Below, piece by piece: positions 2,774 through 41,701 of a DNA stretch of 44,565 nucleotides (positions are counted from its first letter, which is position 1; each line of letters opens with the position of its first letter). A program made the translations under genes and the position numbers. The stretch is from Planctomycetota bacterium (GTDB lineage Bacteria; Planctomycetota; UBA1135; UBA2386), in NCBI GenBank assembly GCA_016873195.1, contig VGXW01000005.1:1-44565 (forward strand), given 5' to 3'. The notes beneath the pieces are model-generated. The model ran no database searches. It saw only the letters and a list, made by a program, of their open reading frames with translations, and was not told the DNA's origin.

Positions 2774-3487
2774 TCACACCCACTGGCGCGTCCAGCCCGG
2801 CACGCGCTTGCCGAGTTCGTCGACCTTCGTCGCGAGGCACTCGCGCACGAGGTCGCGCGCGCGCATGTAGTGGCTGCGCAGCGTGACCTCCTTGATGCCG
2901 CCGAGCTCCGCCGAGATCTCGGCGAACGACAGTTCGCGCTGGCGCCGCATCTCGTAGACGGCGCGCATCTGCTTCGGCAGCTGCTGGGCGCACTCCTGCT
3001 CGGCCCTCTCGAGTTCGCGGAAGCGCACGATGCCGGTCGGGGTCTCGCCGCCGGCCGGCGCGTTGGCGACGATCGAGCCCGGGTTCGCGTCGCCGTCGCC
3101 GGCCGCGGTCTCGCCGCGGCCGACCAGGCCCAGCCGCCGGTCGCGGTCGAAGCGGCGCCACATGTCGCGCCACACGTTGCCGCCGATCGTCTGCACCCAG
3201 CGCCAGAACGAGTCGTGCCCGCGGTCCTCGTAGTTGTGGATCGAGGTCATCACCTTCGCCATCAGGTCGCTGACGAAGTCGTGGAACTCGGTGCCCGGCG
3301 GGAACGAGCAGTTGCCGAAGCGCGTGCGCAGGTAGTAGACGATCTTCGCCGACAGCGCGGTCCAGGCCCGCGCGGCTTCGCCGCTGACGGCCTCGCGGAC
3401 GAGGAACTGCGTCTCGCCGCCGGCCGGGGGCTGCTCCGCGACGGGCGCTGGTTGCGGTCCGGACGTGTTCTTCTTGGGCTTGGTCAT
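2774..3487 (-). CDS. ECF-like RNA polymerase sigma factor
   Basis: 237 aa; sigma-2-like FHDFVSDLMAKVMTSIHNYEDRGHDSFWRWVQTIGGNVWRDMWRR and sigma-4-like AVYEMRRQRELSFAEISAELGGIKEVTLRSHYMRARDLVRE. 18 bp downstream of tagF on the same strand. Confidence 0.85.
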   Translation of the reverse strand: MTKPKKNTSGPQPAPVAEQPPAGGETQFLVREAVSGEAARAWTALSAKIVYYLRTRFGNCSFPPGTEFHDFVSDLMAKVMTSIHNYEDRGHDSFWRWVQTIGGNVWRDMWRRFDRDRRLGLVGRGETAAGDGDANPGSIVANAPAGGETPTGIVRFRELERAEQECAQQLPKQMRAVYEMRRQRELSFAEISAELGGIKEVTLRSHYMRARDLVRECLATKVDELGKRVPGWTRQWV

Positions 3488-3505: not shown

Positions 3506-4366
3506 CTAGCGGCTCGTGAGGAAGCTCCCGAGGTCGGCGCCGGCTGCCGGCATCGGCGTGCGCGCGGCGAACGACGCCGGGATCGGCACCGCGCCGGGGT
3601 CGGTGTCGAAGGCTGCCCCGGACGCGCAATCATGCCACAGCAACGCCTCGAAGTGGCTCGGCACCGCGTAGTCGAACGACAGCCGCCAGGCGATGCCGCC
3701 GTCGGCCTCCTGCCAGAACAGCATGCCGGGCACCTGCTGGCCGAGCCGCTGCAGCAGCGCGGCGCCCGCCGCGAGATGGCGCAGATCGCCTTGCCACCGG
3801 CCGCGCAGCACGAAGTTCGGGCGGCGGCCGCCCGAGAACGCGTAGTCGATCGCGCGCAGGCGCGCCGGCAGCCCGCCCGGCGTGCCGTCGGCCCAGGCCG
3901 CGGCGGTGGTGGTGGCGAGCCAGGCCGCCTGCTGCGCCTCGCCGTCCGCGTCGAGCCCCGTGCGCAGCGAGCCGACGTGCTCGCGCAGTGCCGGCACGTC
4001 GAGGCCCGCGCGGCCGGCCTCGGCGACCGCCGTCGCGCGGGCGAAGAAGCCCGGCGCCGCGGCGAGCACCTGCGCGGTCGACTCGACCTCGCGCGCCGTG
4101 CCGAACACGAGCAGCGGGAACCGCCGGCCCGCGCGGTCGCGGCTCGGCACCAGCGCGCCGAACACCGCGAGCGCGGTGGCGGGCCGCTGCCAGACGAAGC
4201 GCACCGGGGCCTGCGGATCGGGACGCTGGCCGGCCAGCGCCAGGCGCGACCAGCCGTCGTGGAACCACTCGAGCGTGCGGCCGTCGGGGCCTTCCGCCGG
4301 CAGCCACTTCTGGAAGTCGCCCGCGGTGGGCAGCTTGCCGAAGAACCCGGTCCCGCAGAGGCGCAT
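3506..4366 (-). CDS. tagF: Type VI secretion system-associated protein TagF
   Basis: MRLCGTGFFGKLPTAGDFQKWLP...WFHDGWSRL matches the TagF/ImpM N-terminal pattern (GfFGKLPa.GDF). ATG at 4366 is internal to the listed longer ORF; adjacent to tssM. Confidence 0.88.
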   Translation of the reverse strand: MRLCGTGFFGKLPTAGDFQKWLPAEGPDGRTLEWFHDGWSRLALAGQRPDPQAPVRFVWQRPATALAVFGALVPSRDRAGRRFPLLVFGTAREVESTAQVLAAAPGFFARATAVAEAGRAGLDVPALREHVGSLRTGLDADGEAQQAAWLATTTAAAWADGTPGGLPARLRAIDYAFSGGRRPNFVLRGRWQGDLRHLAAGAALLQRLGQQVPGMLFWQEADGGIAWRLSFDYAVPSHFEALLWHDCASGAAFDTDPGAVPIPASFAARTPMPAAGADLGSFLTSR

Positions 4367-4368
4367 GG

Positions 4369-7300
4369 TCAGCGGTCCTTCCAGAGCCTGCGCGACAGCG
4401 TGTAGCTGTCGCCGGGCCAGGCCGGGTTGAACACCCGCGCGACCTCGGGCCGGCGGCACTGCACGATCAACAGCACCTTGTCGGGCCTGCCGATCAGCCC
4501 GATCTCGCTGAGCCACTCGCGGTCGTTCTCCTGCCGCACGTTGCCGATCGCGAACAGCCGCAGCAGGCTCCACAGCCCCGGCACGAGCCGCTGGCCGTTC
4601 AGCAGGTTCTCCGGCACCCGCTGGCGCCGCTCGTCGATGAGGTCCTTGATCGACAACGACACGCCCTGGCCGTCGACGAGTTCGACCGTCAGCGCGAGGC
4701 TCTCGGTCGCGCGCATCGACCAGTCGACCGGACGGCCGACCCCGAGCGCGCGGTTCTCGCCGTCGAGGCGCACGCTGCCGATCGCGCCGCCTTGCCTCTG
4801 GATCTCGAGCGTGCACTCGAGGTTCGGCGCCGGCTGCACGACCTGGCCGGCGTAGAGGATGTCGCACAGGTCACCGGCCGAGGCGGCGTCGGCGACGAAC
4901 TCGGGATCCGGCGCGAACGCGTCCTTCGGCTCGAGTTTCCCGATCGTCGCGGCAAGCGTGAGCATCGACTCGAGCGCGCGCGCCAGTTCCGCCGCGTCCG
5001 CCTCGTCCGCGGCGTCGCGCGCGAACGGGAAGCCGTTCTGCAGCTTCTCCCAGTCGGGGAACACGACCTTGTCCGCGTGCTGCTGGATCTCCGCGCGGCA
5101 CGCCGCGCGCTCGCGCGCGACCATCGCCTCGACCAGCGACAGTTCGAGTTCGAAGAACGGATCGCGCTGCGGCCCGGCGCTCCAGTTCAGGCCCTCGACG
5201 CGCGCGCGCTCGTCGGCGAGCCACTTCGCCGCCGCGCGCGCGCGGTCCACCACCTGCGCGAGCGTCGCCTCGGCGCGCGGGCGGCCGGGGCCCTTGTCCC
5301 AGGGTGGTTCGTTGACGAGCTGCATGCCCTGCAGCGACTCGACCATCGCGGCCAGCTCCTTGCTGCGCTCGGCGGCGAGCGGCCCGCGCTTGCCGAGCAC
5401 CTCGCCAGCGATGCGGTGCGCGGCGACGAGTTCGGGCACGATCCCGAGGCGCTTCGTGCCCTCGCCGTCGGCGGCCGCCGGGATCTCCTCGCGCGCCTTC
5501 GCGAGCGCCGCGAGTCCGCCCAGCAGCTGGCTCCAGCCGGCCTCGAAGTCGGTGGCGAGCACGCGCAGGAACTCCTCGCGTTGCTGCGCCACGTGGTCGA
5601 CCCAGCCGCCCCCGAGCAGGTCCGCGAGCGGCTGCCGCGACGCCGCGCCCGTCATCAGCTGCGCCTTCTGCACGTCGGCGTCGAGGTCGGCGAACAGCTG
5701 CTCGAGGGTCGGCGCCGTGGACTTCGCCGAAGCGCTGCCGAGCAGCGTGCCCGTGGCTTCGAGTTGCAGGGCCTTGCTGCTCCAGTTGCGCGCGACGGCC
5801 ACGTTGCAGTCGCCGAACCGCGTCCTGCGGTCCTTGGTGCCCGCCCACGCCTTCGGGAACAACTGCGCCGTCGTCAGTTCCTTGGCCTCGCGCAGGTCGC
5901 TCTGCTGCTCCTTGCCGAGCAGCGCCAGCAGCCGCTTGCGCGCATCGTCGAGCGCGACGCGCGCCTCCGGGATCGTCAGCTCGAGGTCGGCGGCCGCGAA
6001 CAGCCGTTCGAAGTGCTTCGTCTGGCTCTCGCCGTCGCCGACCGCCTTCCGCCAGATCGCTGCCGCGCTGTCCTTCTGCTCGGGACGCCGCCGGCGGAAC
6101 GCCTCCACACCCGCCGCGACGTCCGCCAGTTCGCGCTCGGCCGCGGCGGCCAGCTCGAAGCGCTGCTGCTTCTGCGGACCGTCGGCCGGCGCCGGCTCGC
6201 CCTCCGCCGGCAACTTCGCGACGGCGGCCGCCGCGGCTTTGGCCACGTGGGCGCCGAGCCGCCCGTTGGCGAACGCCTGCAGCGAGCGCCGGTAGTGCTG
6301 TTCGAGGTGGTCGATCACGCCCCCGCGCTCGAGGTGGTGGCTGCCGCTCTCGAGCAGCCGCAGTTGGGCGTCGAGCGCCGCGCGCAGCTCCTCCGGGCCG
6401 CTCTCCCCGGGCGCCGCGATCGCCGCCCGGATGCGGTCGGCATCCGCGGCGAACCCGCTGCGCGTGCCCCAGTCCCAGACGATCGTCGCGACCGCGGCGA
6501 GACCGAGCGCCGCCGCCGTGCCGAGGCGCAACCACTTCGCCTGCCGCGCCGCGCGCACGCTCGGCGCCGCGAGGCCGGCGTCCTCGAACACGACCTTCGT
6601 GAACAGGTCGTCGACGAAGTAGCAGCGCCGCGATTCCTCCGGCACGTCCTGCTCGAGGTCGGCGGGCCGCAGCACCTTCAGGATCTTGTCGATCGTCGTG
6701 CCTTCCTGCGTGCCGCTGGTGAAGTAGACGCCGCGGATCGGCGACACCTCCTGGTAGGGGTTGTCCTGCTGCAGCTGCGTCAGGAAAGCCTGCAGCCGTT
6801 CCTTCACGCGCAGGAACTGCAGCGGGAACGCGTAGAGCTGCGCCTTGCGCTTCTTGAAGTGGTCGCTCGCGAGCAGGTCGACGCGGCGCACGCACAGCGA
6901 CCGGTACAGCTCGTCGAACTCGCGGCCGAACTGCTCGGCCAGCGCGAAGTCCGCGCCGCGCTGGAACGGGAACGTGAAGCCCCAGACCTGCCGGCGCTGC
7001 TCCTTGTTCAGCGTGTCGAACGTCTCGACGAAACCGCGCAGGCGGTCGCACTTGGTGAACACGACGTAGATCGGGAACACCGTCTGCAACTCGCGAGTGA
7101 GCTCGTCGACGCGGTCGCGCACGCTCTCGGCGTGCGCCTGCATCTCGGCCTCGCTCGCCTCGATCAGCTCCGGCAGCCCGATCGCGACGATCGCGCCGTT
7201 GACGGGGCGATGCTTCCGGCCCCGTTTCAGCAGCTTCAGGAACGCCATCCACTCCTCGCGGTCCTCGGCTTCGGTCGTGTAGCGGCCGGCGGTGTCGAGC

Positions 7301-7815
7301 AGGATGCCGCGGTCGGCGAACCACCAGTCGCAGTTCTTGGTGCCGCCGAGCCCGCGGATCGCGCTGCGCCCTTTGGTCATGTACGGGAAACTGAGCCCGG
7401 ACTGCCGCAGCAGCGTGCTCTTGCCCGAACCCGGCGGGCCGATCAGCACGAACCACGGGATCGAGTGCAGCGCCGCGCGGCCCATCTTCGACTTGCGCAG
7501 CAGTTCGAGCGATTCGTCGAACTGGCTCTTCAGCTGCTCGAGGTCGGCGCGCTGGTCGGGGCGCGTGCCGCCGAGCTGCGAGTCGCCCTGCGCCCGGAGC
7601 GCCTGCTCGAGCGTCGACGCGGCCCTCGCGGCGGCGCGCTGCTGCAGCGCGACGGCGGCGGCGAACCCCGCGACCACGGCGCCCGCGGCGACGTGCAGCC
7701 AGGTCCAGTCGACGCCGGACAGGTAGCCGACGAAGTAGATCGCCAGCACGAGCAGCGCGACGACGAGCAGGCCGACGATGCGCTGCGACAGCAGGCCAAC
7801 GAGGAGCTTCGGCAT
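4369..7815 (-). CDS. tssM: Type VI secretion system membrane subunit TssM (IcmF/VasK)
   Basis: 1148 aa; N-terminal TM helices, Walker A VLIGPPGSGKSTLLRQSGLSFP, IcmF-type G-domain, long periplasmic region; located between tssL and tagF. Confidence 0.93.
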   Translation of the reverse strand: MPKLLVGLLSQRIVGLLVVALLVLAIYFVGYLSGVDWTWLHVAAGAVVAGFAAAVALQQRAAARAASTLEQALRAQGDSQLGGTRPDQRADLEQLKSQFDESLELLRKSKMGRAALHSIPWFVLIGPPGSGKSTLLRQSGLSFPYMTKGRSAIRGLGGTKNCDWWFADRGILLDTAGRYTTEAEDREEWMAFLKLLKRGRKHRPVNGAIVAIGLPELIEASEAEMQAHAESVRDRVDELTRELQTVFPIYVVFTKCDRLRGFVETFDTLNKEQRRQVWGFTFPFQRGADFALAEQFGREFDELYRSLCVRRVDLLASDHFKKRKAQLYAFPLQFLRVKERLQAFLTQLQQDNPYQEVSPIRGVYFTSGTQEGTTIDKILKVLRPADLEQDVPEESRRCYFVDDLFTKVVFEDAGLAAPSVRAARQAKWLRLGTAAALGLAAVATIVWDWGTRSGFAADADRIRAAIAAPGESGPEELRAALDAQLRLLESGSHHLERGGVIDHLEQHYRRSLQAFANGRLGAHVAKAAAAAVAKLPAEGEPAPADGPQKQQRFELAAAAERELADVAAGVEAFRRRRPEQKDSAAAIWRKAVGDGESQTKHFERLFAAADLELTIPEARVALDDARKRLLALLGKEQQSDLREAKELTTAQLFPKAWAGTKDRRTRFGDCNVAVARNWSSKALQLEATGTLLGSASAKSTAPTLEQLFADLDADVQKAQLMTGAASRQPLADLLGGGWVDHVAQQREEFLRVLATDFEAGWSQLLGGLAALAKAREEIPAAADGEGTKRLGIVPELVAAHRIAGEVLGKRGPLAAERSKELAAMVESLQGMQLVNEPPWDKGPGRPRAEATLAQVVDRARAAAKWLADERARVEGLNWSAGPQRDPFFELELSLVEAMVARERAACRAEIQQHADKVVFPDWEKLQNGFPFARDAADEADAAELARALESMLTLAATIGKLEPKDAFAPDPEFVADAASAGDLCDILYAGQVVQPAPNLECTLEIQRQGGAIGSVRLDGENRALGVGRPVDWSMRATESLALTVELVDGQGVSLSIKDLIDERRQRVPENLLNGQRLVPGLWSLLRLFAIGNVRQENDREWLSEIGLIGRPDKVLLIVQCRRPEVARVFNPAWPGDSYTLSRRLWKDR

Positions 7816-7819
7816 GGGG

Positions 7820-8527
7820 CTATCGGGTGGCGTCCCTCAGGGTCTGGCCGACGTCGAGCGCGTTCCACCAGGTCAACAGCTCGGAGATGCCGTGCAGCAG
7901 GCCGATCACGGCGAGCCCGGCGGCGACGATCAGCCAGGTCGGCAGCCGGCCGACGCTGCGCGCGACCGACTCCTTCTGCTCCCAGTGCGGCGCGAGCGGC
8001 GTCGTCTCGCGGCCCTCGTTGATGCGGCGGCTCACCGACCACAGGATCTCGCGCAGGCGTTCGGCGCCCGACGCGTCGATGTGCATGCCCTTGAAGCCGA
8101 GGCTCAGGCAGGTCGCGTGGACCTCCAGCACGGCGACCGTGTCGGCGCCGAGCCGGCCGCCGCGGCCGAGGTTCTCGAGCCGTTTGAAGAACTCCTCGCC
8201 GGCGTTGAACTCGGCGAACAGCTCGGCGGCGAGCGGCCGCCGCAGCCACTCCTCGCGCATGGCCCAACGGCTCGCCAGCACGACCTCGTCGAGCAGCGCG
8301 ACGATCGCGTACTTGGCCTGGTCGACGGTCTCCTTGGCGAAGCCGTGCTCGCGGCCGGCGGCGTCGAGCTGCGCCAGCAGTTCGCGCGCGCGCGCCGTCG
8401 TCGCGTCGTAACGCGGCGGTTCGGCGGCCTTCGACTCGACCGGGCCGGCCTGCAGCTCGACGACGAACGCGAAGAGGCCCGCGCAGAGGTCGCACAAGGT
8501 GGTGATGCGGTCGGCGGTCCGGGTCAT
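7820..8527 (-). CDS. tssL: Type VI secretion system protein TssL (DotU/IcmH), short form
   Basis: ATG at 8527 (MTRTADRITTLCDLCAGLFAFV); DotU-like AKYAIVALLDEVVLAS...FFKRLENL...LEVHATCLSLGFKG; C-terminal TM helix. Start overlaps tssK stop by 4 nt. Confidence 0.9.
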   Translation of the reverse strand: MTRTADRITTLCDLCAGLFAFVVELQAGPVESKAAEPPRYDATTARARELLAQLDAAGREHGFAKETVDQAKYAIVALLDEVVLASRWAMREEWLRRPLAAELFAEFNAGEEFFKRLENLGRGGRLGADTVAVLEVHATCLSLGFKGMHIDASGAERLREILWSVSRRINEGRETTPLAPHWEQKESVARSVGRLPTWLIVAAGLAVIGLLHGISELLTWWNALDVGQTLRDATR

Positions 8528-9870
8528 GGGCTCACCTTCTTCACGCACAGGCACTCGACCTGCACGTCCTCGAACTCGGTCGGCACCGAGATGCACAGCG
8601 TGCGCGCGTCGCGCACCGCGTCCCAGTGCCTGCCCTCGCGCGACAGCGCGAAGTAGTGGCAACCCGGCCGCTGCGGGATGTCGCTCGGCGGCACCGGCAC
8701 GTGCGTCAGCACGACGCCGCGAAGGTTCGCCATGCGGATCGCCTCCATCGACGCCGGCGAGGTCACGCGCACCTTGAACGGCGCCTCGCGGGTGAACTTG
8801 TCCGGCGACGACGGGCCCGACAGCACGAGGTAGAAGTCGGCGGCCAGCAGCGCGTCGTCCTCGATCAGGCCGAGCCACTCGTCCGGCGGCTTGCGCTTCA
8901 GCGGGATGCCGACGCAGCTCTCCGGCGCGATCGTCTGCGGCAGCTCGCGCAGGTGCTTGTCGAGCGCCTGGAACGTCGCCGTCAAGTCCTGGTGGTCGTA
9001 CGGCGGCACGCCGGCCGCCGACCTGTCGGGCGCGTAGGTGCACAGCGCCCCGGCCAGCGCCGCCAGCGTGGCGTAGGCCTGCTCGGGGTGCGTGCCCGGC
9101 GTGCGGCAGTGGTGCGCGACGAGCGGCAGGTGGCTGTTGACGGTGTGCCGCAGCCAGAAGCCCGCCGCGTCGGCCGAAGTGAACTGCACGCTGCCGCCGA
9201 TGCGCTGGCCACGCTTCTGCGCCAACTCCTCGCTCTTGCTGGCCAGGAACTCGGCCGTGCGTTTGAGCTGGTCGCGCAAGGTCTTCGCGGCACCGAGGCA
9301 CAGGCAGGTCGGCACGAAGGCCTTGTCGAGCTGGAACGCCGAGCCGCTGCGTCTGATGCGCGCGACCTCGAGCGCCTGGAAGCCGTCGAGCGCTTCGCCG
9401 TGCCACAGCACGCGCAGGTCGAGGTCGCCGACCGCCACGTCGCGCGTCGCGGTGCCGGCGAAGTCGTCGGTGATCTCGAGCTTGCGGCGGCGGTAGCGGC
9501 CGATCGCGCTGGCGTCGTCAGCGCGCGACAACATGCCGCCGGCGCGGCCTTCGCGCACCGCGAGGTGCACGCCGAGCACCTCGTGCCCGGGCCGCAACGC
9601 GTCGGCGAACCGGCGCCGGGCCGGCAGCGGGTCCAGCGACGGCGCGCGGAACACGAGCCCGTCGCGGAACACGCCGGCGGCCTGCAGCAGCACGAACTCG
9701 CCCTGCGCGATCGCCTCCTCGTCGATCTCGAGCGCGAGCAGCCCGTGGCCGTGCGGCGACAGCGCGCCGGCGCGGCCGTGCAGCTGCTGCAGCAGGTGGC
9801 GTTCGAAGGCCTGGAAGTGCTGCGGGCCGAGGAACATGCCCTCCTCCCACAGGATCTTCTCGTTGGTCAC
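8524..9870 (-). CDS. tssK: Type VI secretion system baseplate protein TssK
   Basis: 448 aa starting MTNEKILWEEGMFLGPQHFQAFERHLLQ, the characteristic TssK (ImpJ/VasE) N-terminus. Confidence 0.93.
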   Translation of the reverse strand: MTNEKILWEEGMFLGPQHFQAFERHLLQQLHGRAGALSPHGHGLLALEIDEEAIAQGEFVLLQAAGVFRDGLVFRAPSLDPLPARRRFADALRPGHEVLGVHLAVREGRAGGMLSRADDASAIGRYRRRKLEITDDFAGTATRDVAVGDLDLRVLWHGEALDGFQALEVARIRRSGSAFQLDKAFVPTCLCLGAAKTLRDQLKRTAEFLASKSEELAQKRGQRIGGSVQFTSADAAGFWLRHTVNSHLPLVAHHCRTPGTHPEQAYATLAALAGALCTYAPDRSAAGVPPYDHQDLTATFQALDKHLRELPQTIAPESCVGIPLKRKPPDEWLGLIEDDALLAADFYLVLSGPSSPDKFTREAPFKVRVTSPASMEAIRMANLRGVVLTHVPVPPSDIPQRPGCHYFALSREGRHWDAVRDARTLCISVPTEFEDVQVECLCVKKVSP

Positions 9871-9900: not shown

Positions 9901-10497
9901 TCAGCCGTCCGGGGACTTCGCACGCGCGGCCTCCTTGGGCTTCTCGGGCGGCGGCGGCACGGCCAGACGCTTGCCGTCGACGCGGAACGCGACGCTGCCG
10001 CCGGGCGCGGGCAGGCACAGGCGCCAGACCTCGTTCGGGTCGTCGTCGCGGTGGCCCTGGAAGTCGCCGACCAGCCCGACGCAGGCGACGTCGAGCGGCA
10101 CGGTGACCTGCGCGACGGTCGGCTCGGCCACACCGTCCTTCTGCGGCAGCACCTTGATCTTCTTGACGTCGACGACGTCGGCCGCGAGGAACGCGGGCCA
10201 GTTGCGATTCTCCCTGCGCACGTCCTCGGTCAGGAAGTCGTCGAGCCGCCGCTCCTTGCCCTCGAACGCCTCGCACTTCTTCAGGAAGAACGCGTAGACG
10301 TCGACCGGGGCGCTGACGTTGTTGCGGCTCGGGTTCATCGGCTCGCCCGGCGTCGCCAGCAGTCCGACCTCCTTGGTGGTCGCGCAGCCGCTGATGAAGA
10401 TGCAACCGCCGAGCAGGGCAGGCAGGGCCAGGGCCCAGAGCCTGCGGCGGGCCGGCGAGCCATTGTGGAGCGGGAGTCGATCGTGCGTCGTGTCCAT
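9901..10497 (-). CDS. tssJ: Type VI secretion system lipoprotein TssJ (VasD-like)
   Basis: 198 aa; lipobox-like signal (ALLGGCIFISGC), small beta-rich domain, and position between tssK and the FHA gene. Confidence 0.72.
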   Translation of the reverse strand: MDTTHDRLPLHNGSPARRRLWALALPALLGGCIFISGCATTKEVGLLATPGEPMNPSRNNVSAPVDVYAFFLKKCEAFEGKERRLDDFLTEDVRRENRNWPAFLAADVVDVKKIKVLPQKDGVAEPTVAQVTVPLDVACVGLVGDFQGHRDDDPNEVWRLCLPAPGGSVAFRVDGKRLAVPPPPEKPKEAARAKSPDG

Positions 10498-10504
10498 CGG
10501 ATCC

Positions 10505-13500
10505 TCAGGGCTGTTTCTTGTCGGCGTCGCGGCGGTCCTGCAGGCTCTTCTGCAGCAGGCGGTCGAGCTCGAGCTCGAATTGTTTGCCCTCGACCACCTC
10601 GTGGAAGGTCTCGACGTAGAGCTTCCACAGGTGCGAACCCGCCGCCAGGTTCGTCTTCAGGCCGCGGCCGATCTTCTCGACGAGCCGCTCGGGGTCCAGG
10701 CGGTCGCGGATGGCGCGGCGGATCGTCTGCGCGCCCGCGAGCAGCCCCTCCATCATCGCCTGCACGTCGCGGAAGAACTTGCCGAGCATGGCGCCGGACT
10801 GCTCCGGCGAGGCGGATCCGGCGGCCCAGGCCAGCAGCAGCTGGCGCAGGTCGGCCGCCGTGCGCACCGAACTCAGGCCGGTGGCGCCGGCGCTGGTCGC
10901 GCCGAGTTCGAGCTGCTGGCCGAGTTCGCGGCGCAGCAGCAGCGCGCCCTCGATCCACTTCGAGGTCGCCTCGACGAACTGGCCGAGCTTCGCCGCGAAC
11001 CGCTCGATCTCGTCGGGCCGCGTGAAGTCGCCGGCGCCGACGCACGCGGAGGCCAGCTGTGCCAGCGCCTTGTGCGCGCTGGCGAAGAACTTCGCGCCGA
11101 CCGGCTCCTTGCCGCCCGCCGCCGGCGCGGCCCCGCGCACGCGCTGCGCGATCTCGTCGACCTTGGCCAGCAGCCCGGCGGTGCCCAGCGCGCCCTTGGC
11201 GGCCAGCAGCACCTGCCGCAGCGCGTCCTTCTGCGCGACCGGGTCGGCCTGCAGCCGCGCGGCGTACTCGGCGAACACCTGGTCCGCGAGCCGGTCGGCC
11301 GACACGATCGACACGACCGACGTGACCTCGAGGCGGTCGGAGCCGTGGTGGAACACGAGCGTGAACGGCCGGATCCGGATCACCGAGCCGTCGTGCAGCG
11401 GCTGCGCGACCTCGCCGGGCAGGCGGATGCCGTCGACCTCGGTGCCGTTCGTGCTGTTGCGGTCGACGATCGCGTAGCCCTCGGCCTGCTTCTCGATCAC
11501 CGCGTGCGCCGACGAAACCATCGGGTCGTTGAGCCGCACGAGGTTCTCGACCTCGCGGCGGCCGATCGTGACCTGCTCGCGCGTGAAGTCGTACTGCTGC
11601 GGCGCCGGATCGCCGTCCTTCTGCACCGCCAGGCGGAACCCGCCCTGCGCACGCAGCGCGGCGCCGCCGCCGGTCGGCGCGCCCTCGTCGGGCCCGCGCA
11701 GCAGTTCGCCGCGCAGCTGCTCCTGCACCTCGGCGCAGGCGGCCGCGACGGCGGCGTCGCGCGCGCCGGCCGCGAACAGGTCGACGTAGAGCCGCGCGCG
11801 CACGGCTTCGACGTCCTGGTGCACCTGCTTCAACAGGAACGGCGAACTCTCGGCGTGGCTGTCGGCGTAGCTGTAGCCCGCGATCTGCGTCGTCAGCCGG
11901 AAGGCGACGTCGAGCAGGGCCTGCCACGAACCCGCGTCGACCGGCTCGCGGTCGCCCGTGCACGCGCGCTGGTAGACGGCGCGGTCGTCCCGGCGCTGCA
12001 GCACGTTCGCCGCCGCGAAGCGCGCGCGCACCTCCTTGCCGGCCACGAACTGCTGCACGCGCGCGAGCACGGCGCGGCCGTCGACCGGCCCGCCCGACAG
12101 TTCGTCGCGCAGCTTGCGCAGGCACCTGCCGACCACGTCCTCGACCTCGTCCATCGGCTGCTGGTCGTTCGCGAGCAGCGTGCGGAACAGCAGCATGCCG
12201 AGGCCGTAGAGGTCGACCGGCGGCCCGAAGTTGCGGAAGAAGGTGCACGCGGCCTCGAGCGACTTGCCGGCCCAGCGCACGCACGGATCGTCCCGGCCGA
12301 CCTCGGCGCTGGCGACGAAGCCCTTCGCCTGGATCTGCTCGAGGCGCGCCCACAGCGCCGACTCGGCGCCGAGCAGGCCCGCGCTCGGCACGAGGCAGAC
12401 CCAGTCGCCGGCGCGGAAGCGCTTCAGGTTGCTGCCGCCCTGCGCCTCGACGACGAGCCGCATCCGCTCGCCGGCCGGCTCGGCGGGCCGGAACCTGACG
12501 CTCAGCGTGCTGCCCTGGCCGTCGCTGTCCTGCAGGTCCGCCGCGTGGTACGGGCGCATGCGCAGGTCCTCGCGCGCCTCGGGCCCGGGCCCGAGCAGGT
12601 CGGGCGGCTGCCCCGCCCGCACCGGCGGCCGGAACCGCACGGCGCCGCCGAGGTCCAGCAGCTGCACCTCGCAGTTCCAGCGCGAGGGCGCGCTCCTGCC
12701 CGCGGGCAGCAGCCGCGCCATCACGTTCTGCGGCGCGAGGCCGAAGTGCGGCCGGCCGGTCGCCGCGTGCACGGCGCGCAGGCCCGCGACGACCTCCTGG
12801 AACGCCCCGAGCTTCTGCCGCAGCACCTCGAGCGGGAAGCGCAGGGCGTCGCCCTGGAACAGCCACTGCGCCGGCCCGGCGAACGCGGCCGCGTGCCGCT
12901 GCAGCAGCTGCTTCTGCGCCGGCTTGCCGGCGCCGAGCACGTCGGCGAAGTCGCCGCCGCCGAGCAGTTCGCAGAGCTGGTCGTAGTCGACGTCGAGCAG
13001 CTGCAGCGGCAGCGCGACGAAGTCGTAGAACGAGACCGCCTGCAGCTGGTCCTCGGCGGGGATCCGGCCGCTCCGGGCATCGGCGGGGAAGTCGGCGGGA
13101 AAGCAGGTCGCGCGGTGCTCGCAGTCGAGGCACGGCAGCACGCCCTGCGCACGCTGCACCGCGGCGTCGCCGGCCGCGCCGTTCACGAGCCGGCCGAAGT
13201 CGCGGAACAGGTCGGCGCCGATGCGCACGGTGACGCCGTCGCGCGGCCGTTCGCCGTTGGCGCCCGGCGTGCGGTAGAAGGTGCGCGACCGCCGCTCTGC
13301 CCCGCCGCCGTAGAGGTAGCGCCAGGAGTCCTGCGAGTACTCGACGAGACCCAGGTCGGCGAGGAATGCGTCGTCGCGGCAGACCGTGAGCGCCTCGCCG
13401 GTCTCGGCGCAGACGGGGTGGAAGTAGGCGTCGCGCCTCTCGCAGTGGATCACCGGCCGCGAGGCGCGCAGGCCCGGCGGGGCGGGCACGAGGCGCGCGA

Positions 13501-13834
13501 CGTGCGGCGAGTCGATCGCGGCGAGGTCGTGGCTCTCGCGCTGCCACAGTTCGTCGATGTCGGCGTTCGTGAGCCCCTGCCCGTGGCCCGGGCTCTGCGC
13601 CTTGTACTGGTCGCTCTGCACCTTCCCCGCGAACCGCAGCAACTCCGCGCCGCCTTCGGCGCGCAGTTCGGCCAGGAAGATGCGCGAGAAGCGGCCCTCG
13701 TGCAGCACGACGAAGCGCGCCATGCTGTCGGCCGGAGCGCGCACGAGCTGGAAGCGCAGGCCGGCCGCCGTGGATCCGAGCGTCGGGGTCGGCGCCGCGG
13801 CGCCCATGGGATGGCAGCTGTCGCGTCCCGGCAT
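10505..13834 (-). CDS. Kinase-like (probable pseudokinase) - FHA domain fusion, T6SS post-translational regulator
   Basis: 1109 aa. N-terminal kinase-like pieces: FAGKVQ (beta3 Lys), HFGLAPQNVM (degenerate HRDLKPxN), LLDLGGAV (DFG-like), VDLYGLGMLLFRTLL (alphaF). Central FHA domain: VTIGRREVENLVRLNDPMVSSAHAVIEKQAEGYAIVDRNSTNGTEVDG. Acidic/basic C-terminal helical domain. Confidence 0.85.
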   Translation of the reverse strand: MPGRDSCHPMGAAAPTPTLGSTAAGLRFQLVRAPADSMARFVVLHEGRFSRIFLAELRAEGGAELLRFAGKVQSDQYKAQSPGHGQGLTNADIDELWQRESHDLAAIDSPHVARLVPAPPGLRASRPVIHCERRDAYFHPVCAETGEALTVCRDDAFLADLGLVEYSQDSWRYLYGGGAERRSRTFYRTPGANGERPRDGVTVRIGADLFRDFGRLVNGAAGDAAVQRAQGVLPCLDCEHRATCFPADFPADARSGRIPAEDQLQAVSFYDFVALPLQLLDVDYDQLCELLGGGDFADVLGAGKPAQKQLLQRHAAAFAGPAQWLFQGDALRFPLEVLRQKLGAFQEVVAGLRAVHAATGRPHFGLAPQNVMARLLPAGRSAPSRWNCEVQLLDLGGAVRFRPPVRAGQPPDLLGPGPEAREDLRMRPYHAADLQDSDGQGSTLSVRFRPAEPAGERMRLVVEAQGGSNLKRFRAGDWVCLVPSAGLLGAESALWARLEQIQAKGFVASAEVGRDDPCVRWAGKSLEAACTFFRNFGPPVDLYGLGMLLFRTLLANDQQPMDEVEDVVGRCLRKLRDELSGGPVDGRAVLARVQQFVAGKEVRARFAAANVLQRRDDRAVYQRACTGDREPVDAGSWQALLDVAFRLTTQIAGYSYADSHAESSPFLLKQVHQDVEAVRARLYVDLFAAGARDAAVAAACAEVQEQLRGELLRGPDEGAPTGGGAALRAQGGFRLAVQKDGDPAPQQYDFTREQVTIGRREVENLVRLNDPMVSSAHAVIEKQAEGYAIVDRNSTNGTEVDGIRLPGEVAQPLHDGSVIRIRPFTLVFHHGSDRLEVTSVVSIVSADRLADQVFAEYAARLQADPVAQKDALRQVLLAAKGALGTAGLLAKVDEIAQRVRGAAPAAGGKEPVGAKFFASAHKALAQLASACVGAGDFTRPDEIERFAAKLGQFVEATSKWIEGALLLRRELGQQLELGATSAGATGLSSVRTAADLRQLLLAWAAGSASPEQSGAMLGKFFRDVQAMMEGLLAGAQTIRRAIRDRLDPERLVEKIGRGLKTNLAAGSHLWKLYVETFHEVVEGKQFELELDRLLQKSLQDRRDADKKQP

Positions 13835-34570: not shown

Positions 34571-35887
34571 TCAGGCTACGGCGTGCCCACCCCGCTTCCA
34601 GAGCCGGACGATGAACCTCGCGTCCTCTTCCACGAGGTCCGGCTCGGTGCCGTTGTGGGCCCGCATGCCCTCGATGATCTTGCGCGGCACTCCGAGGCCC
34701 GTTGCCTCGATGTAGCGATAGTCACGCAGCACTTCCTTGACCAACTCGTTGCGCGAGGCCCGGTAGCCAGCGCGCATCTTGTCGACGGTCACGGTGTTCG
34801 GCAGGCGTCCGGGTGAGATGACCTCCAGGCGGTCTTCGTACAGGGACAACTCGATGTCCATGACGGTGATCGTGTAGTCGCGGTGCGCGACCGCATTGAC
34901 GATCGCCTCCCGCACCGCCTCCAGGGGATACTCCCACCGCTCCTGGCGTCGTCCGCCCGCGTCGATCTCCGCAACGACCGCCATGTTCCGTCGCACGAAG
35001 CTCATCGCCTGTTCGATCACACCCGCGTCCACCGCCTGGGCGATCGCCGAGGAACCGCCGGCAGCCGGTAGCCCCTGGTCCGTGCCTGCCGGTGGGAACA
35101 ACGAGACCACCGCGCCGCGCAGCGAGGCCCGCTCCCTCGCGGAGTAGTCCTTCTCCCTCCCGAGGTAGGCCACGGCGGTGATGCCCGACTGCGGCAACCA
35201 CCGCTTCGGGTTCTTGCCGAAGAGCAGCACGCCGCCGACTCCGGGCACGACCCGCCCATTGCTCTCGTGCATCAACTCGGTGTTGATCAACTGCCGGGTC
35301 CACGCTGCCCGAGAGACAGCATACGCCGGTGACTCCGGGGGCTCGATGCTCGGGCAACTCTGTTGGCGCACGTCGCGGAAGTAGTTGACCAGCCTGCGCA
35401 TGTCGAAGTCGTCGAGGCTGCCACCCGGCACGGGCTTTCGGTCGTACTGCAGCGTGCCGGCCTGCATGTAGAGGCGGGCCTCTTCCTCCTTGGTCGCGTC
35501 CCGGGTCGTGGTGCCGACCCGCATCTGCGTCACCCAGGCGGATCCTCTCTTGGCCTTGTAGGGCTTGTCGGGAGCATCCGACGACAGGGTGATGATCCCG
35601 ACGATCCTGCCAGCGCCCCAATCGATGGTCTCCCAGAACGGGATGCAGGCCGGCTGGAGGTTGTTGCCCGCGACCTGCATCACCCACTCCTCGGCCTTGT
35701 CGACGGGTCGGGTCAGCCCGGTGACCGTGCCGTCCTTCTCGACGCCGAGCAGGACGTGCCCACCTTCGAAGTTGAGCAAGGCCGCGACGTCCTTGGCCAG
35801 TTTGTCGGGATGCACGTCGTCGCGTTCGAACTCCACGCCCGACGGCTCGCCGTTGCGGATCAGATCAGCCAGTTCGGTGCGATTCAT
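34571..35887 (-). CDS. AlbA_2/Schlafen-type ATP-binding regulator with HATPase_c_4-like C-terminus
   Basis: 438 aa; GVEFERDDVHPDKLAKDVAALLNFEGGHVLLGVEKDGTVTGL (AlbA_2), EAVREAIVNAVAHRDYT...LEVISPGRLPNTVTVDKMRAG (HATPase_c_4-like). Confidence 0.88.
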   Translation of the reverse strand: MNRTELADLIRNGEPSGVEFERDDVHPDKLAKDVAALLNFEGGHVLLGVEKDGTVTGLTRPVDKAEEWVMQVAGNNLQPACIPFWETIDWGAGRIVGIITLSSDAPDKPYKAKRGSAWVTQMRVGTTTRDATKEEEARLYMQAGTLQYDRKPVPGGSLDDFDMRRLVNYFRDVRQQSCPSIEPPESPAYAVSRAAWTRQLINTELMHESNGRVVPGVGGVLLFGKNPKRWLPQSGITAVAYLGREKDYSARERASLRGAVVSLFPPAGTDQGLPAAGGSSAIAQAVDAGVIEQAMSFVRRNMAVVAEIDAGGRRQERWEYPLEAVREAIVNAVAHRDYTITVMDIELSLYEDRLEVISPGRLPNTVTVDKMRAGYRASRNELVKEVLRDYRYIEATGLGVPRKIIEGMRAHNGTEPDLVEEDARFIVRLWKRGGHAVA

Positions 35888-36271: not shown

Positions 36272-39187
36272 TCAGCGGCCGAGCACCGCCAGCAGGCCCT
36301 GGCTCGCCGCGAGACCCGGCAGCGCGGTTCCGGCGGCATCGACGACCAGCGCCTGCGCGGCGATCCCGAGGCCGACGAACGCGGGATCGTTGGGCACCGC
36401 GAGGCCGTAGCCTGCCTCGCCGAGTCCGTTCGCGCCGGTGAGCACCGCGACCGCGCCGCCGCCGAGGTGCAGCACGCAGCCGCCCTGCAGCACCGTGGTC
36501 GCCCGGCCCACCGAGAAGCCGAACAGGCACGGGGCGAACGCGCGCGCGCGGCGCAGTTGGTAGCCGATCTGCCCGCCGAGCCGCGGCGTGCCCGCCGCGA
36601 GTTCGGGCAGGCCCGCGGCCCCCGCGCAGCCGATGCCCAGCGACTCGAGCGCGGGATTGCCGACGACGCCGAGCGGCATGCTGCCCGGCTCCATGCCCGT
36701 GACCCCGTCGTCGGCGAGGTAGTAGAGGCGTTCGCCGGCGACGCCGAGGAACTGCGGGTTGCTGCTGCCGCCGCCGGGCGCGAGGTCGGCGATGCGCAAG
36801 GTGCCCGCGGCCGTGCCGTCGCTGACGTAGGGTTCGAGCCCGTCCAGCCCGTCGCTCGCGGCGAGCAGGACCCGGTCGCCGAGCGCGGTGCCGGATACCG
36901 CCGCGACGCCGTGCTGGAACCCGGGCGCGAGGTCGGTCACGCGCAGGGTGCCGGCGGCCGTGCCGTCGCTGCGCCACAGTTCGCGGCCGTGTTGCGGATC
37001 CTCGGCGACCACGTAGACGAAGGCGCCGGCGAACGCGCTCGACAGCGCATCGCCCGGCAGCGGCAGCACCGTCCGCGTGGTGCCCGCGACGGTGCCGTCG
37101 GTGACGACCAGTTCGGTGCCCTGCAGCCGCGCGAGGCCGTTCTTCCACGGCCGCAGGCTGCCGGCCGTCGCGGCGCCCGCGACCGACCCGAGCAGCTGCT
37201 GGGTGCCGGCGACGGTGCCGTCGGTGACCCAGAGCGGTGGGTTCTGGCCGCCCCCTGTGTAGCCGAAGAACACGATGCGGTCGCCGAGCCGCGTGCAGCC
37301 GCTCGGCCAGGGGCCGGGCAGCGCCCAGGTTCCCGCGGCCGTGCCGTCGGTGCGCCAGAGCGAGTGGTTGGCACCCGCAGCCACGACGACGCCGTTGGCG
37401 ACGCCGAAGGAGAGGTAGAGGAAGTGGTAGGTGAGCAGGTTCCCCGTCACGGGGACGGTGCCCGCCACCGTGCCGTCGGTGCGCAGCACGGTGAGCCGCG
37501 TGCCGAGCGGGTCGAAGTCCGCGAAGTAGAGTCCGTGGCCCTCGGCCTGCAGCTGGCCCGGCGCGCCGCCCTGTGCGCCGAGTGCGTCGTAGACGCAGGT
37601 GGTGCCGCTGGCCGTGCCGTCGCTGCGCCACAGCGCCATGCCCGTGGCCGGCGTCAGCGCCGTGAAGTAGACGACGCCGTCGAGCGCGAGGATCTCGGAG
37701 TAGCTGCCGATGCTGCCGTCCTGGCCGGGATACAGGTCGGCGACCATGTACGTGCCGGCCGCCGTGCCGTCGCTGCGCCACGGTTCGAGCCCGTGCACGC
37801 CGTCCCTGGCGAACGTGAAGAGCACGCCGTTGCACGTGACGCTCTTCTGCACCGTGTTGCCGCTGCGCGCCGACGGGGTCCACAGGGTCTGCGTGCCCGC
37901 CGCGGTCCCGTCGCTGATCGCGAGGAACGGGGTGCCCTGGCCGCCCAGGTTGAGCCCCATCACGAGCATGCGGCTGCCGAGCCGCAGCAGGCCCGGCGCG
38001 TTCGTGCCGGGCACGTTCGCCGTGGTCGTGCCGGCGGCGGTGCCGTCGCTCGCGACGACCGTGAGGCCCGTGCCGTAGCTGGAGCAGGCGAGCATCGCCC
38101 GGCCCTGGTGCACGAAGCTGCGCCAGAGCACCATGCGCGGCGGCGCCAGGACGGCGCCGAGGTCGACCACGAACTGCGTCCCCGCGACGGTGCCGTCGCT
38201 GCGCCACAGCTGCGAGCCGCAGACGGCGAACGCCGTGGTGCCGTCGCTGACGAGTCCGCCCACCGGATTGCTGCCCGCGGGCAGCAGCAGCGCGGTTCCG
38301 GCCAGGGTGCCGTCGCTGCGCCACAGGGCACCGCCGAGCACGGCCAGCAGCGACCCGCCCGCGCGCACGAGCCGTTCGGTCGACGAGGTGTTGCGCACGA
38401 AGCCCGTCGCCACGACGAGCTGCGTGCCCGCCGGCGTGCCGTCGGTGCGCCACAGCTCCGCGGTGCCCGCGGCCCCGGTCGCCAGGAAGTAGACGTGGTT
38501 GCCGAACGGCGTGAACCAGTCGGGCGAGGAACCCATCGTGGGATGGACGTCCGCGAGCCGCAGCGTGCCCGCCGCAGCACCGTCGGTGACCCACGGTTCG
38601 TTGCCGGCCGCGTCGCCGACGCCCTGGAACACGAGGCGGTTGCCGAGGCTGCCGCTCTGCACGTAGGTGCCGCGGACCTGCACGGCGGCCACCTGCACGG
38701 TCCCCGCCGCCGTGAGGTCGCTCGCCCACAGCTCCATGCCGCCGAAGATCGCGCGCCCCTGCAGCACGCCGAGCCCGCGGAAGGAGCCGGGCGAGGACGG
38801 CGCGTCGCTGACCGGCACGGTCCCGGCCGGCGTGCCGTCCGTGACCCAGAGGCGCCCGCGCTGCAGGCCGGAGCGCGTCGCCAGCAGCAGGCGGTTGCCG
38901 ACCCACTGGATCGGTTCGGGCCCGCTGCTCGCGGCACCGGGGACCAGGTCGCGCAGGAGCCGTGTGCCGGCCACGGTGCCGTCGGTGACCCACGGCTCGA
39001 TGCCGCCGTCCTGGCTCCAGCCGTCGAAGCAGGCCCGTTGGCCGTCGCTGCTGGCGAACTGCAGGCTGCCGTAGGCCAGTTCGCCGGTGTAGGGCGTCTG
39101 GTTGACGTCGCGCGCGAGCTGCTGCGCGGGCAGGGCAACGACCAGAAACACCGTCGCGAGGCAACGGGTCGACGGGTGGGCGAGCAT
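36272..39187 (-). CDS. Secreted multi-repeat protein with about 17 'W/V-x-[SDT]-DGTxxGT' (ELWxxDGTxxGT-type) repeats and a C-terminal domain
   Basis: MLAHPSTRCLATVFLVVALPAQQLARD signal peptide; repeated LWRSDGTAAGT/VTDGTVAGT units every about 40-50 aa. Confidence 0.9.
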   Translation of the reverse strand: MLAHPSTRCLATVFLVVALPAQQLARDVNQTPYTGELAYGSLQFASSDGQRACFDGWSQDGGIEPWVTDGTVAGTRLLRDLVPGAASSGPEPIQWVGNRLLLATRSGLQRGRLWVTDGTPAGTVPVSDAPSSPGSFRGLGVLQGRAIFGGMELWASDLTAAGTVQVAAVQVRGTYVQSGSLGNRLVFQGVGDAAGNEPWVTDGAAAGTLRLADVHPTMGSSPDWFTPFGNHVYFLATGAAGTAELWRTDGTPAGTQLVVATGFVRNTSSTERLVRAGGSLLAVLGGALWRSDGTLAGTALLLPAGSNPVGGLVSDGTTAFAVCGSQLWRSDGTVAGTQFVVDLGAVLAPPRMVLWRSFVHQGRAMLACSSYGTGLTVVASDGTAAGTTTANVPGTNAPGLLRLGSRMLVMGLNLGGQGTPFLAISDGTAAGTQTLWTPSARSGNTVQKSVTCNGVLFTFARDGVHGLEPWRSDGTAAGTYMVADLYPGQDGSIGSYSEILALDGVVYFTALTPATGMALWRSDGTASGTTCVYDALGAQGGAPGQLQAEGHGLYFADFDPLGTRLTVLRTDGTVAGTVPVTGNLLTYHFLYLSFGVANGVVVAAGANHSLWRTDGTAAGTWALPGPWPSGCTRLGDRIVFFGYTGGGQNPPLWVTDGTVAGTQQLLGSVAGAATAGSLRPWKNGLARLQGTELVVTDGTVAGTTRTVLPLPGDALSSAFAGAFVYVVAEDPQHGRELWRSDGTAAGTLRVTDLAPGFQHGVAAVSGTALGDRVLLAASDGLDGLEPYVSDGTAAGTLRIADLAPGGGSSNPQFLGVAGERLYYLADDGVTGMEPGSMPLGVVGNPALESLGIGCAGAAGLPELAAGTPRLGGQIGYQLRRARAFAPCLFGFSVGRATTVLQGGCVLHLGGGAVAVLTGANGLGEAGYGLAVPNDPAFVGLGIAAQALVVDAAGTALPGLAASQGLLAVLGR
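36795..38990 (-). repeat. Coding tandem repeats, period about 120-160 bp
   Basis: Plus-strand motif gtgcc(g/c)gcNNcNgtgccgtcg(c/g)tg recurs at about 36802, 36946, 37079, 37204, 37330, 37458, 37592, 37753, 37889, 38027, 38177, 38296, 38423, 38561, 38700, 38820 and 38964. Confidence 0.85.
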
Positions 39188-39294
39188 GCTGGGTTCCTCG
39201 GCGGAGGGAGGCGACCGGGAACGCGAGGAGCCCAGTCTAGCGGCGATCGGGGCCGCGGTAACGGGGCGAGGCCGCCGCGGGCACCGCCCCCCTG

Positions 39295-41421
39295 CTACCG
39301 GCTGCGTTCGATCTCGTCGACCACGCGCGCCGCACCGTAGACGTGCCGCAGCGCCTGCAGGATGCCCTGCGAGTGCACCGAGATCGTGCGGTTGCCCCGG
39401 TCCGGCGCGAAGATGAAGTCGCCCGGCAGGCCCTCCGCGTTGCCGTCGAACGCGAGCCCGACGATCTGCTTGTCGCGGTTGATCACCGGGCTGCCCGAGT
39501 TGCCGCCGATGATGTCGCAGGTCGACACGAAGTTCATCGGCGTGCCGAGGTCGAACGCGACCGGCGGATTGCGCCACCGCTCGGGCAGGCCGAAGGCGTT
39601 GCCGTTCATCAGCGCGTCCCACGCGTCGGGCACCTGCGCGAACGAACGGTTGCGGTCCAGCATGCCGTAGAACGTCGTGAAGGGCGGCGCGACGGTGCCG
39701 TTGTAGACGTAGCCGTCGACCACGCCGTCGGAGATGCGCAGCGTGAACGTCGCGTCCGGCGGGATGCCGTTGCCGTAGACCTTGTAGAGCGCTTCGCCGA
39801 GCCGCTGGCTCTTCTGCTCCAGTTCCTGCGCCAACGGCGCGGTCGCCGCGGCCGCCGCCCCGTTGCGCGCGACCATGACGCGGGCGAGCCGCACGAGCGG
39901 GTCCTGGTTGTCTTCGAGCGAGGTGGCATCGAGCAGTTGGGCCAGCCGCCCCTCGTCGCCGAGCACGGTCTCGCCGAGCAGGCGCGCGGCCGCGGCTTCG
40001 GCGGTGCCGCCGGCCAGCGTCTGCTGCAGCAGCGGATCGCCGGCGGGCAGCATCTGCTGCATCATCCGCAGCTGCGCGGCCAGCGCCGCGGCTTCCCGTT
40101 GTGCGTCGACCGCGAGCGGCTTCTGCAGCCGCCGGCGCTGCGCCGCCGCGCCCGTGCCGCGCAGCTCCGCAGCGCGTTCCGCCTCGGGTCTGCCCATCTG
40201 CTCGCAGTAGCCGACGATCGCCGCGGCGCGGCGCAGGTACTCGCTGGTGCCGCGGCCGGCGGGCCGCAGGGCCTGCAGATCGGGCGCGTGCTGCCGCAGC
40301 TTGCCGACCAGGGCGGCGACGTCGTCCCACAGCGAGCCGTACTCGGCCTCGAGCACCGGGTCCTTGCGGATCGCCTCGCGCGTCTGCCGGTCGAAGGCCC
40401 GGCGCCGCGCGATCAGTTCCGCGTCGCGCAGCCCGAGCAGCCGGCCCGTGTAGGCCTCCTGCGAGTTCACGATGCCGAAGTACTCGTCGAACGCCGCGTC
40501 GGCGGTCTCGGGATCGGCGCGGATCGCCTGCCGCGCGCCCGCCATCATGTTGTCCAGCATCGCGACGACGAACGGGGCGCGGAAGTCGCGCTCGAACTCG
40601 AGCATCTCGGCCGTGACGAGACGGCCGGTGCGGCCCGGATTGCCGACGACGAAGACCGGCTCGCCCGGCGCGGCGCCGTTCTGGCTCCAGCGGAACCAGT
40701 GCGGCGTCGCGAGCGGCTTGCCGCCCTCGTAGACGCGGAACAGGTCGCAGTCGAACGAGTAGCGCGGATAGGCCCAGAAGTCGTAGATGCCGCCGAAGAA
40801 CGCGAACGCGAGCTCGCTCGAGAACACGAGGCGCACGTCGTCGTACTTGCGGTAGCGGTAGGCCGCGAACTTCGCCCCGTGGTAGAAGGTCACGACCTGG
40901 CAGCGCAGCGGGGCCTCGGTCAGGCGCTGCTCGATCGCGGCGATCGCCGCGGTCCGCGCGGCCAGCGCGGCCTTGTGGTCCGCGGCGCCGTTCGTCGCCC
41001 CGAGCACTTCGCCGGTCACGTCCTGGATCTCGACCAGCTGCTCGACGAACAGGCCGGGCACCTTGCGTTCCTGCTCGAGCGTCGCGGCGTAGAAGCCGTC
41101 GCGCCGCAGGTTCTCGCCGTCGCGCGTGACCGCCTTCACGCCGTCGAGGCCGCAGTGGAAGTTCGTCATCACGAGCCCCTCGGCGCTGACGAACGAGGCC
41201 GAACAGTGGTTGGCGAAGCGAAGCGCCGACATGCGCACGTCGTCGAACCAGGCGGCGTCCGGCGCGAAGCCGTAGGCCTCGGCGAAGCGCGCGGTCGGCG
41301 GATGGTCGAAGGTCCACATCGTGCCGTTGAGCAGCACGGGCTTCTGGTCGGTTTGCGCGAGCGCCGCGGCGCCGAGGCAGGCGGCGGCGAGCAGGACGGA
41401 GACGAGGGAGCTTGGCTTCAT
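39295..41421 (-). CDS. Peptidase S46 family (DPP7/DPP11-like dipeptidyl-peptidase)
   Basis: 708 aa; MWTFDHPP, NHCSASFVSAEGLVMTNFHCG (His region), FVVGNPGRTGRL, DIIGGNSGSPVINRDKQIVGLAFDGN (Ser region). Confidence 0.92.
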   Translation of the reverse strand: MKPSSLVSVLLAAACLGAAALAQTDQKPVLLNGTMWTFDHPPTARFAEAYGFAPDAAWFDDVRMSALRFANHCSASFVSAEGLVMTNFHCGLDGVKAVTRDGENLRRDGFYAATLEQERKVPGLFVEQLVEIQDVTGEVLGATNGAADHKAALAARTAAIAAIEQRLTEAPLRCQVVTFYHGAKFAAYRYRKYDDVRLVFSSELAFAFFGGIYDFWAYPRYSFDCDLFRVYEGGKPLATPHWFRWSQNGAAPGEPVFVVGNPGRTGRLVTAEMLEFERDFRAPFVVAMLDNMMAGARQAIRADPETADAAFDEYFGIVNSQEAYTGRLLGLRDAELIARRRAFDRQTREAIRKDPVLEAEYGSLWDDVAALVGKLRQHAPDLQALRPAGRGTSEYLRRAAAIVGYCEQMGRPEAERAAELRGTGAAAQRRRLQKPLAVDAQREAAALAAQLRMMQQMLPAGDPLLQQTLAGGTAEAAAARLLGETVLGDEGRLAQLLDATSLEDNQDPLVRLARVMVARNGAAAAATAPLAQELEQKSQRLGEALYKVYGNGIPPDATFTLRISDGVVDGYVYNGTVAPPFTTFYGMLDRNRSFAQVPDAWDALMNGNAFGLPERWRNPPVAFDLGTPMNFVSTCDIIGGNSGSPVINRDKQIVGLAFDGNAEGLPGDFIFAPDRGNRTISVHSQGILQALRHVYGAARVVDEIERSR

Positions 41422-41612
41422 GGGTCGGGGGTCGTGGCGACCGGGGGTGGCGCGAGGCGGCCGAGGGGAGGTTGCCCGCGCGAGCGAGTGTAGCCCCGGT
41501 CGCGGCCGGGTTCCGCAGGCGAGCGGGGAGGGTTCCCGACGCAATGGAGCTTCGCGACGCAAGCGCCGTGGCCGCGCATCGCCTAGGCTGCGAGCGAGCC
41601 GTGACGCCCAGG

Positions 41613-41641
41613 TTGCCTGCCTCGCGGGGCTGCCCTAGCAT
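41613..41641 (+). promoter_or_regulatory. Candidate sigma70-type promoter: TTGCCT - 17 bp - TAGCAT
   Basis: TTGCCT 41613-41618, spacer 41619-41635 (17 nt), TAGCAT 41636-41641, upstream of the CDS at 41702. Confidence 0.5.
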
Positions 41642-41701
41642 GCGCCGCCCCCCCCGCCCGCCCGCCGGGCCGTCCCCCGAGGAAGCCTCGAAGGAGCACC
41701 C

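Follow-up and report, generated by a model that had tools for sequence, protein, structure and literature searches.

In a 44,565-nucleotide stretch of planctomycete DNA (the window), a type VI secretion system (T6SS) operon begins with a gene for one polypeptide in which a kinase-like domain without the catalytic aspartate is fused to an FHA protein. On balance, this protein is probably a T6SS regulator and scaffold, formed by a pseudokinase joined to an Fha/TagH-type protein. A preliminary description of the window had placed a kinase-like fold and an FHA domain in one polypeptide at the head of a tssJ-tssK-tssL-tssM operon. Both points were borne out, the fold by AlphaFold2, Foldseek and hhalign, the FHA domain by PF00498 and the four tss genes by their Pfam/NCBIfam matches (Table 1). 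New beyond that description are a T6SS-associated planctomycete kinase-like family, repeated loss of the catalytic Asp within it, an FHA fusion in one clade, and persistence of the fusion in genomes without T6SS.

The fusion gene lies on the minus strand, and its GC content by codon position (0.77/0.49/0.97) is typical of a real gene, with the 97% of the third position matching the neighbouring genes. Seven genes in the same direction, with tight or overlapping spacing, follow one another in the order fusion, tssJ, tssK, tssL, tssM, tagF and ECF sigma factor. The window genome is a fragmented Planctomycetota MAG assembly (809 contigs, 89% complete), in which the remaining T6SS genes (TssA, TssC, ImpE, TssE, TssF, TssG and ClpV) are found on contig C7, the contig of the sheath and baseplate genes. 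Canonical kinases (PF00069) are absent from contigs C4, C5 and C7, and a phosphatase search of this genome with the PP2C_2 family gave its sole match on contig C8 and none on C4, C5 or C7.

Table 1. Features of the fusion gene and its operon in window coordinates, with the evidence for each.
Feature	Coordinates	Strand	Evidence
Pseudokinase-FHA-T6SS_FHA_C fusion gene	10505..13834	-	1109 aa; ORF and codon-position GC; same single frame in 12 other genomes
Kinase-fold region, residues 1-712, two large inserts	11699..13834	-	AlphaFold2 pLDDT 85.8, Foldseek, hhalign with shuffles
β3 Lys71 (FAGK)	13622..13624	-	Nearly invariant in family alignment
αC Glu100 (WQRE)	13535..13537	-	Nearly invariant; helix 90-106 in model
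Cys-rich N-lobe insert, residues about 107-262, three spaced Cys and CxxCx5C	13049..13516	-	Cys conserved through most of family
Catalytic loop H363-F-G-L-A-P-Q-N370, Gly365 at HRD Asp	12725..12748	-	Ungapped profile alignment to HRDVKPGN; deep homologues HLDLKPEN
DFG-type motif D394-L-G	12647..12655	-	Family alignment; strand 388-392 directly before in model
β-barrel insert, activation segment, residues about 440-533	12236..12517	-	Model strands; segment missing from G238 homologue
αF helix with Asp541 (DLYGLGMLLFR)	12173..12217	-	D541 invariant; helix 540-554
FHA domain, residues 755-821, GRR, SSxH and STNGT motifs	11372..11572	-	PF00498 E 4.7e-13; motifs conserved in fused clade
T6SS_FHA_C domain, residues 940-1084	10583..11017	-	PF20232 E 1.5e-6, above curated cut-off
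tssJ (lipoprotein)	9901..10497	-	TIGR03352 E 5.3e-7, PF12790 E 0.0026, both below cut-off; lipobox-like LLGGC; operon position
tssK	8524..9870	-	PF05936 E 1.1e-108
tssL (DotU)	7820..8527	-	PF09850 E 6.5e-41
tssM (IcmF)	4369..7815	-	TIGR03348 435 bits, above cut-off
tagF	3506..4366	-	PF09867 E 1.7e-12 in enclosing ORF
ECF-type sigma factor, operon end	2774..3487	-	TIGR02937 E 1.2e-11; orthologue beside fusion with and without T6SS

Pfam and NCBIfam gave no kinase or other match in residues 1-735 of the fusion protein, and the protein is not among the 31 kinase matches listed in a whole-genome PF00069 search. The kinase fold, which spans residues about 25-710, emerged from two of the checks that the preliminary description had proposed, structure prediction with Foldseek and alignment to Hanks-type kinases, both of which recovered protein kinases. 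An AlphaFold2 model of residues 1-712, based on an alignment of 14 homologues, reached a pTM of 0.86 and places β3 (64-73), αC (90-106), αE (333-359), the catalytic loop (363-370), two short strands, the DLG motif (394-396), αF (540-554) and a helical C-lobe in succession; that is, the bilobal fold and motif order of an ePK. Foldseek matched the model to JAK2, JAK3, TYK2, SRPK1 and Sky1p with probabilities of 0.97-1.00 and target TM values of mostly 0.45-0.56, and because of the inserts these alignments stretch over 640-700 columns for kinases of 290-360 residues. Several of the top matches by E-value are non-kinase proteins (e.g., Setx, E 2e-4, TM near 0.12), possibly matched through the β-barrel insert, and the kinase call therefore rests on the group of kinase matches together with the profile evidence. 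In hhalign, the family was aligned to eight canonical kinases of the window genome at 96.5%, and at 94.0% when only the Asp-less rows from the window's taxonomic family were used, against at most 1.5% for 60 column shuffles and 0.1% for the reversed profile. When PDB sequences were searched with a profile of the family, the matches were weak and mostly to kinases (best LegK4, E 0.007). Absence of a kinase fold is ruled out by the model, the Foldseek matches and the hhalign comparison with its shuffles.

Domain libraries probably overlook the kinase because the two inserts interrupt its domain. The β-barrel insert comprises about 95 residues. The Cys-rich insert carries one more Cys (CPxC) in several deep family members; modelled alone it gave a pLDDT of 79.6, and the isolated model found no match in the PDB that would identify its fold. 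That it holds a zinc site is a guess.

At the catalytic site, the HRD Asp had been described as replaced by Gly with the β3 Lys and the loop Asn kept, and the profile alignment agrees: hhalign sets HFGLAPQN on HRDVKPGN without a gap, which puts Gly365 at the Asp position. The same ungapped alignment rules out a catalytic Asp elsewhere in the loop, which contains no other acidic residue, and the Lys of HRDLKPEN is Ala in this protein. Alignment also confirmed the other motif positions proposed or implied earlier, so that the nucleotide- and metal-site residues K71 (β3 Lys), E100 (αC Glu), N370 (catalytic-loop Asn) and D394 (DFG Asp) are all present, as is D541. The Gly-rich loop departs from GxGxxG (HEGRFSR, with G47 as the only invariant Gly), which makes even ATP binding uncertain. 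Ten fused sequences have a complete catalytic loop, and each of them carries Gly or Ala in place of the Asp, with K71, E100 and most of D394/N370 retained.

This retention across most of the fused clade despite the loss of Asp favours an atypical active enzyme, which would use ATP through K71, D394 and N370 for slow phosphorylation or SelO-like AMP transfer to T6SS or FHA targets. Some activity may remain, given that K71 and D394 are kept and that other activities are known for certain kinase folds that lack the HRD Asp: SelO, a protein of this kind, AMPylates, and both SelO and SidJ are active in spite of having no canonical HRD motif (PMC12599244). However, the residue at the Asp position drifts (Gly, Ala, and Asn elsewhere in the family), the Lys that follows is gone, and further active-site residues have been lost from the copies in G010 and G032 and from a stand-alone copy in G016, which looks like relaxed constraint and not like a new active site. 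An active enzyme is considered unlikely.

The C-terminal part of the protein is of the Fha/TagH type. Its FHA domain has the usual motifs and is a predicted phosphothreonine reader, and it is followed by a T6SS_FHA_C domain, additional to those reported earlier; both score above the Pfam cut-off and lie in a T6SS locus. The TIGR03354 equivalog model gave 51.8 bits against a cut-off of 120.25. No T6SS_FHA_C domain was found in the C-termini of FHA-less deep members of the family, either by its own profile or by hhalign. The order of FHA and T6SS_FHA_C, and the position of the gene directly before tssJ, are those of Fha1/TagH (TIGR03354, PF20232), from which the planctomycete fusion differs by its 735-residue N-terminal kinase-like extension.

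The closest known arrangement is the PpkA-Fha pathway of Pseudomonas and Agrobacterium, in which a kinase fold and an FHA protein are likewise encoded in a T6SS locus with TagF and TssL beside them. PpkA phosphorylates Fha1 or TssL, Fha binds phosphothreonine, and the kinase catalytic residues of PpkA are required for TssL phosphorylation (PMC3953482). PpkA is catalytic and separate, whereas the kinase of the planctomycete fusion, a diverged form with two inserts and no Asp, is one polypeptide with the FHA protein. The fusion gene shares the T6SS-locus position of PpkA but has no PF00069-recognised kinase domain and no partner phosphatase (PppA) of the PP2C_2 family in the locus, and the T6SS contigs of the window genome, unlike the PpkA-Fha pathway, are without a PP2C_2 phosphatase. 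A canonical PpkA fused to Fha is ruled out, as there is no Pkinase match and the family is distinct. Functional parallels only are provided by EssB/YukC with EssC/YukB in T7SSb, where a pseudokinase and FHA serve as a secretion-system scaffold (PMC9436818, PMC12599244), and by mycobacterial MviN with FhaA, where a pseudokinase with FHA recruitment is a regulatory principle (PMC12599244). T7SSb is another secretion system with two proteins and with all catalytic motifs of EssB degraded, whereas the planctomycete fusion is one T6SS protein; in mycobacteria, MviN stands apart from FhaA as its own protein and is a substrate of PknB.

The kinase-like family was searched for within Planctomycetota, in 61 relatives and across 392 genomes from this phylum, and 25 members were usable in a tree. 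Judged by multi-region matches, 14 of the 392 genomes were counted as having clear members; five further weak matches were set aside, a choice made after the matches were seen. TssK is present in 13 of the 14 family-positive genomes, compared with 82 of 392 overall (Fisher p about 8e-9, treating as independent genomes that are related by ancestry), and in 15 if all 19 matches are counted, the weak ones included. Since 69 of the 82 TssK-positive genomes have no clear member, the family is an optional part of T6SS and not a universal one. Eight member-less TssK loci were examined; an FHA or FHA_C gene stands alone before tssJ in two, and a canonical kinase was seen in none. Many members of the family have no fused FHA. 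The kinase-like gene precedes tssJ-K-L-M in distant families, and lies upstream of tssK and tssM in the same direction in G179, G193, G164, G130, G265 and G238. Between it and the tss genes lies a separate FHA gene in G238; in G265 this place is taken by a short gene that matches FHA_C close to the threshold. A search for related loci with a closer subset of the alignment gave eight MAG loci (six Planctomycetota, one Candidatus Kuenenia and one labelled 'bacterium'). Among titles and abstracts, no literature on a planctomycete T6SS kinase was found, and a 2025 review of bacterial pseudokinases mentions neither Planctomycetota nor T6SS.

Within this family the catalytic Asp has been lost repeatedly. 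The deep members in G152 and G129 keep HLDLKPEN, and the G152 protein gives a PF00069 match (E 5.5e-6, below cut-off) that covers this loop. Asp is also present in G015, the sister to the fused clade, in which FHA is a separate gene. Stand-alone copies of about 720-730 aa in G010 (L063 5961-8120) and G016 (L062 7380-9539, on a T6SS contig) have kept Asp and lost the catalytic-loop Asn. On the 25-protein tree, the state at this position changes at least three times, or four times if Asp is ancestral and never regained, counts that are approximate because the root is a midpoint and several deep forks are weakly supported.

Thirteen genomes encode the kinase-like and FHA parts in a single frame; all belong to the window's own taxonomic family, the only one in which the fusion was found. 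These parts are encoded by side-by-side genes in G015, G017 and G238, and the fusion therefore plausibly joined two neighbouring genes. To this extent the earlier suggestion of a PpkA-Fha pathway collapsed into one protein stands, but the kinase concerned is not a canonical PpkA and belongs to a diverged family with two inserts. The domain may also, as suggested there, be inactive and sense a ligand. In the proposed survey of how often the fusion precedes tss genes, these lie directly downstream in five of the 13 genomes (G000, G001, G004, G018 and G023), but an ECF sigma gene adjoins the fusion instead in seven (G010, G027, G028, G029, G030, G031 and G032); the distance between the two is 18-120 bases in the five cases measured, and 1.2 kb in G027. 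The fusion of G016 adjoins neither. In G000, G001, G004 and G018 the operon closes with the same sigma orthologue. Neither TssK nor VipB was found genome-wide in G027 to G032 (completeness 72-93%). The gene order suggests a deletion of tssJ-K-L-M-tagF from between the fusion and the sigma gene, a reading that the truncated copy in G010 (L049 7319-10291) fits. This copy ends after FHA beside the sigma gene, has no catalytic Asp, loop Asn, DFG Asp, C-terminus or adjoining tss genes, and looks like a deletion remnant. An S15-family peptidase gene lies directly before the fusion in T6SS-free genomes (L050 833-2722, L052 3364-6147, L053 5776-7647 and L056 8608-10524), and in G026 (L108 4672-6573) such a gene adjoins the sigma gene.

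The ECF sigma factor, with orthologues in 17 of the 61 genomes searched, may be a regulator of the fusion locus or only a flanking gene. Should it be a partner, the fusion would couple transcription to a signal, which might be the state of the T6SS or damage to the envelope, and the T6SS link would be partial or secondary. Such a coupling would suit an orthologue that ends the operon in four genomes and adjoins the fusion in the seven without adjoining tss genes, six of which lack both TssK and VipB. However, the gene persists without an adjoining fusion in G024 and G026, and it does so on other contigs in G017, G023 and G002. The pairing may thus reflect location alone, with the sigma gene a stable neighbour that stayed in place when the tss genes were deleted; the deeper family members adjoin tss genes, and no orthologue of the sigma gene was found beside them. 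A sigma-factor partnership is rated as distinctly improbable. The least probable account, a poor prospect, is that function resides in the FHA/FHA_C half, beside a kinase-like part that is a remnant in decay: catalytic residues are repeatedly lost, up to the state of the G010 fused copy, and most planctomycete T6SS genomes manage without the family, but throughout the fused clade the kinase-like region keeps its full length and 35-53% identity to the window copy, and 19 columns are invariant over 14 family sequences.

The operon has FHA, TssL and TagF, and the T6SS contigs have no canonical kinase or PP2C_2. In the simplest account, that of a T6SS regulator and scaffold, the pseudokinase would bind nucleotide or a partner and work as a docking switch, contributing docking or a nucleotide-dependent conformation instead of phosphate, and the FHA domain would read phosphothreonine placed by an ordinary Hanks kinase of the genome. 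As with known Fha proteins, FHA/FHA_C may connect the pseudokinase to TssL/TssM and may be restrained by TagF, which is reported to repress T6SS through Fha (PMC5995506); contacts of Fha with TagF (PMC5995506) and TssL (PMC3953482) are reported for other bacteria. Counting against the scaffold are the fusion copies, most of which do not adjoin tss genes, the six genomes that keep the fusion without T6SS, and the large share of planctomycete T6SS genomes without a family member. In those six genomes no T6SS was detected, yet the fusion persists next to the ECF sigma orthologue; the protein may therefore also act without T6SS, and in this sublineage it may serve another pathway.

More tentatively, and with considerable doubt, the whole history may be that of an optional planctomycete T6SS part with a Cys-rich, possibly metal-binding insert, which passed from active kinase to scaffold, was fused to FHA once and was kept beside an ECF sigma gene, as a signalling protein in its own right, after T6SS was lost. 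The family forms a natural series from an active-looking kinase (HLDLKPEN) through side-by-side kinase-like and FHA genes to a pseudokinase and FHA domain in one protein. Almost the whole series is linked to the same machine, and a non-catalytic structural role for the kinase of the T6SS threonine pathway thereby becomes testable. It is also an addition to the bacterial pseudokinase families, and one missed by standard libraries.

Elsewhere in the window, positions 34571-35887 encode an SLFN/AlbA_2 and HATPase_c_4 protein (E 3.6e-19) with no visible tie to the T6SS operon, a 2326-aa open frame occupies 36272-43252 on the minus strand, and a single frame at 80-2755 unites a MeaB-like GTPase part with methylmalonyl-CoA mutase.
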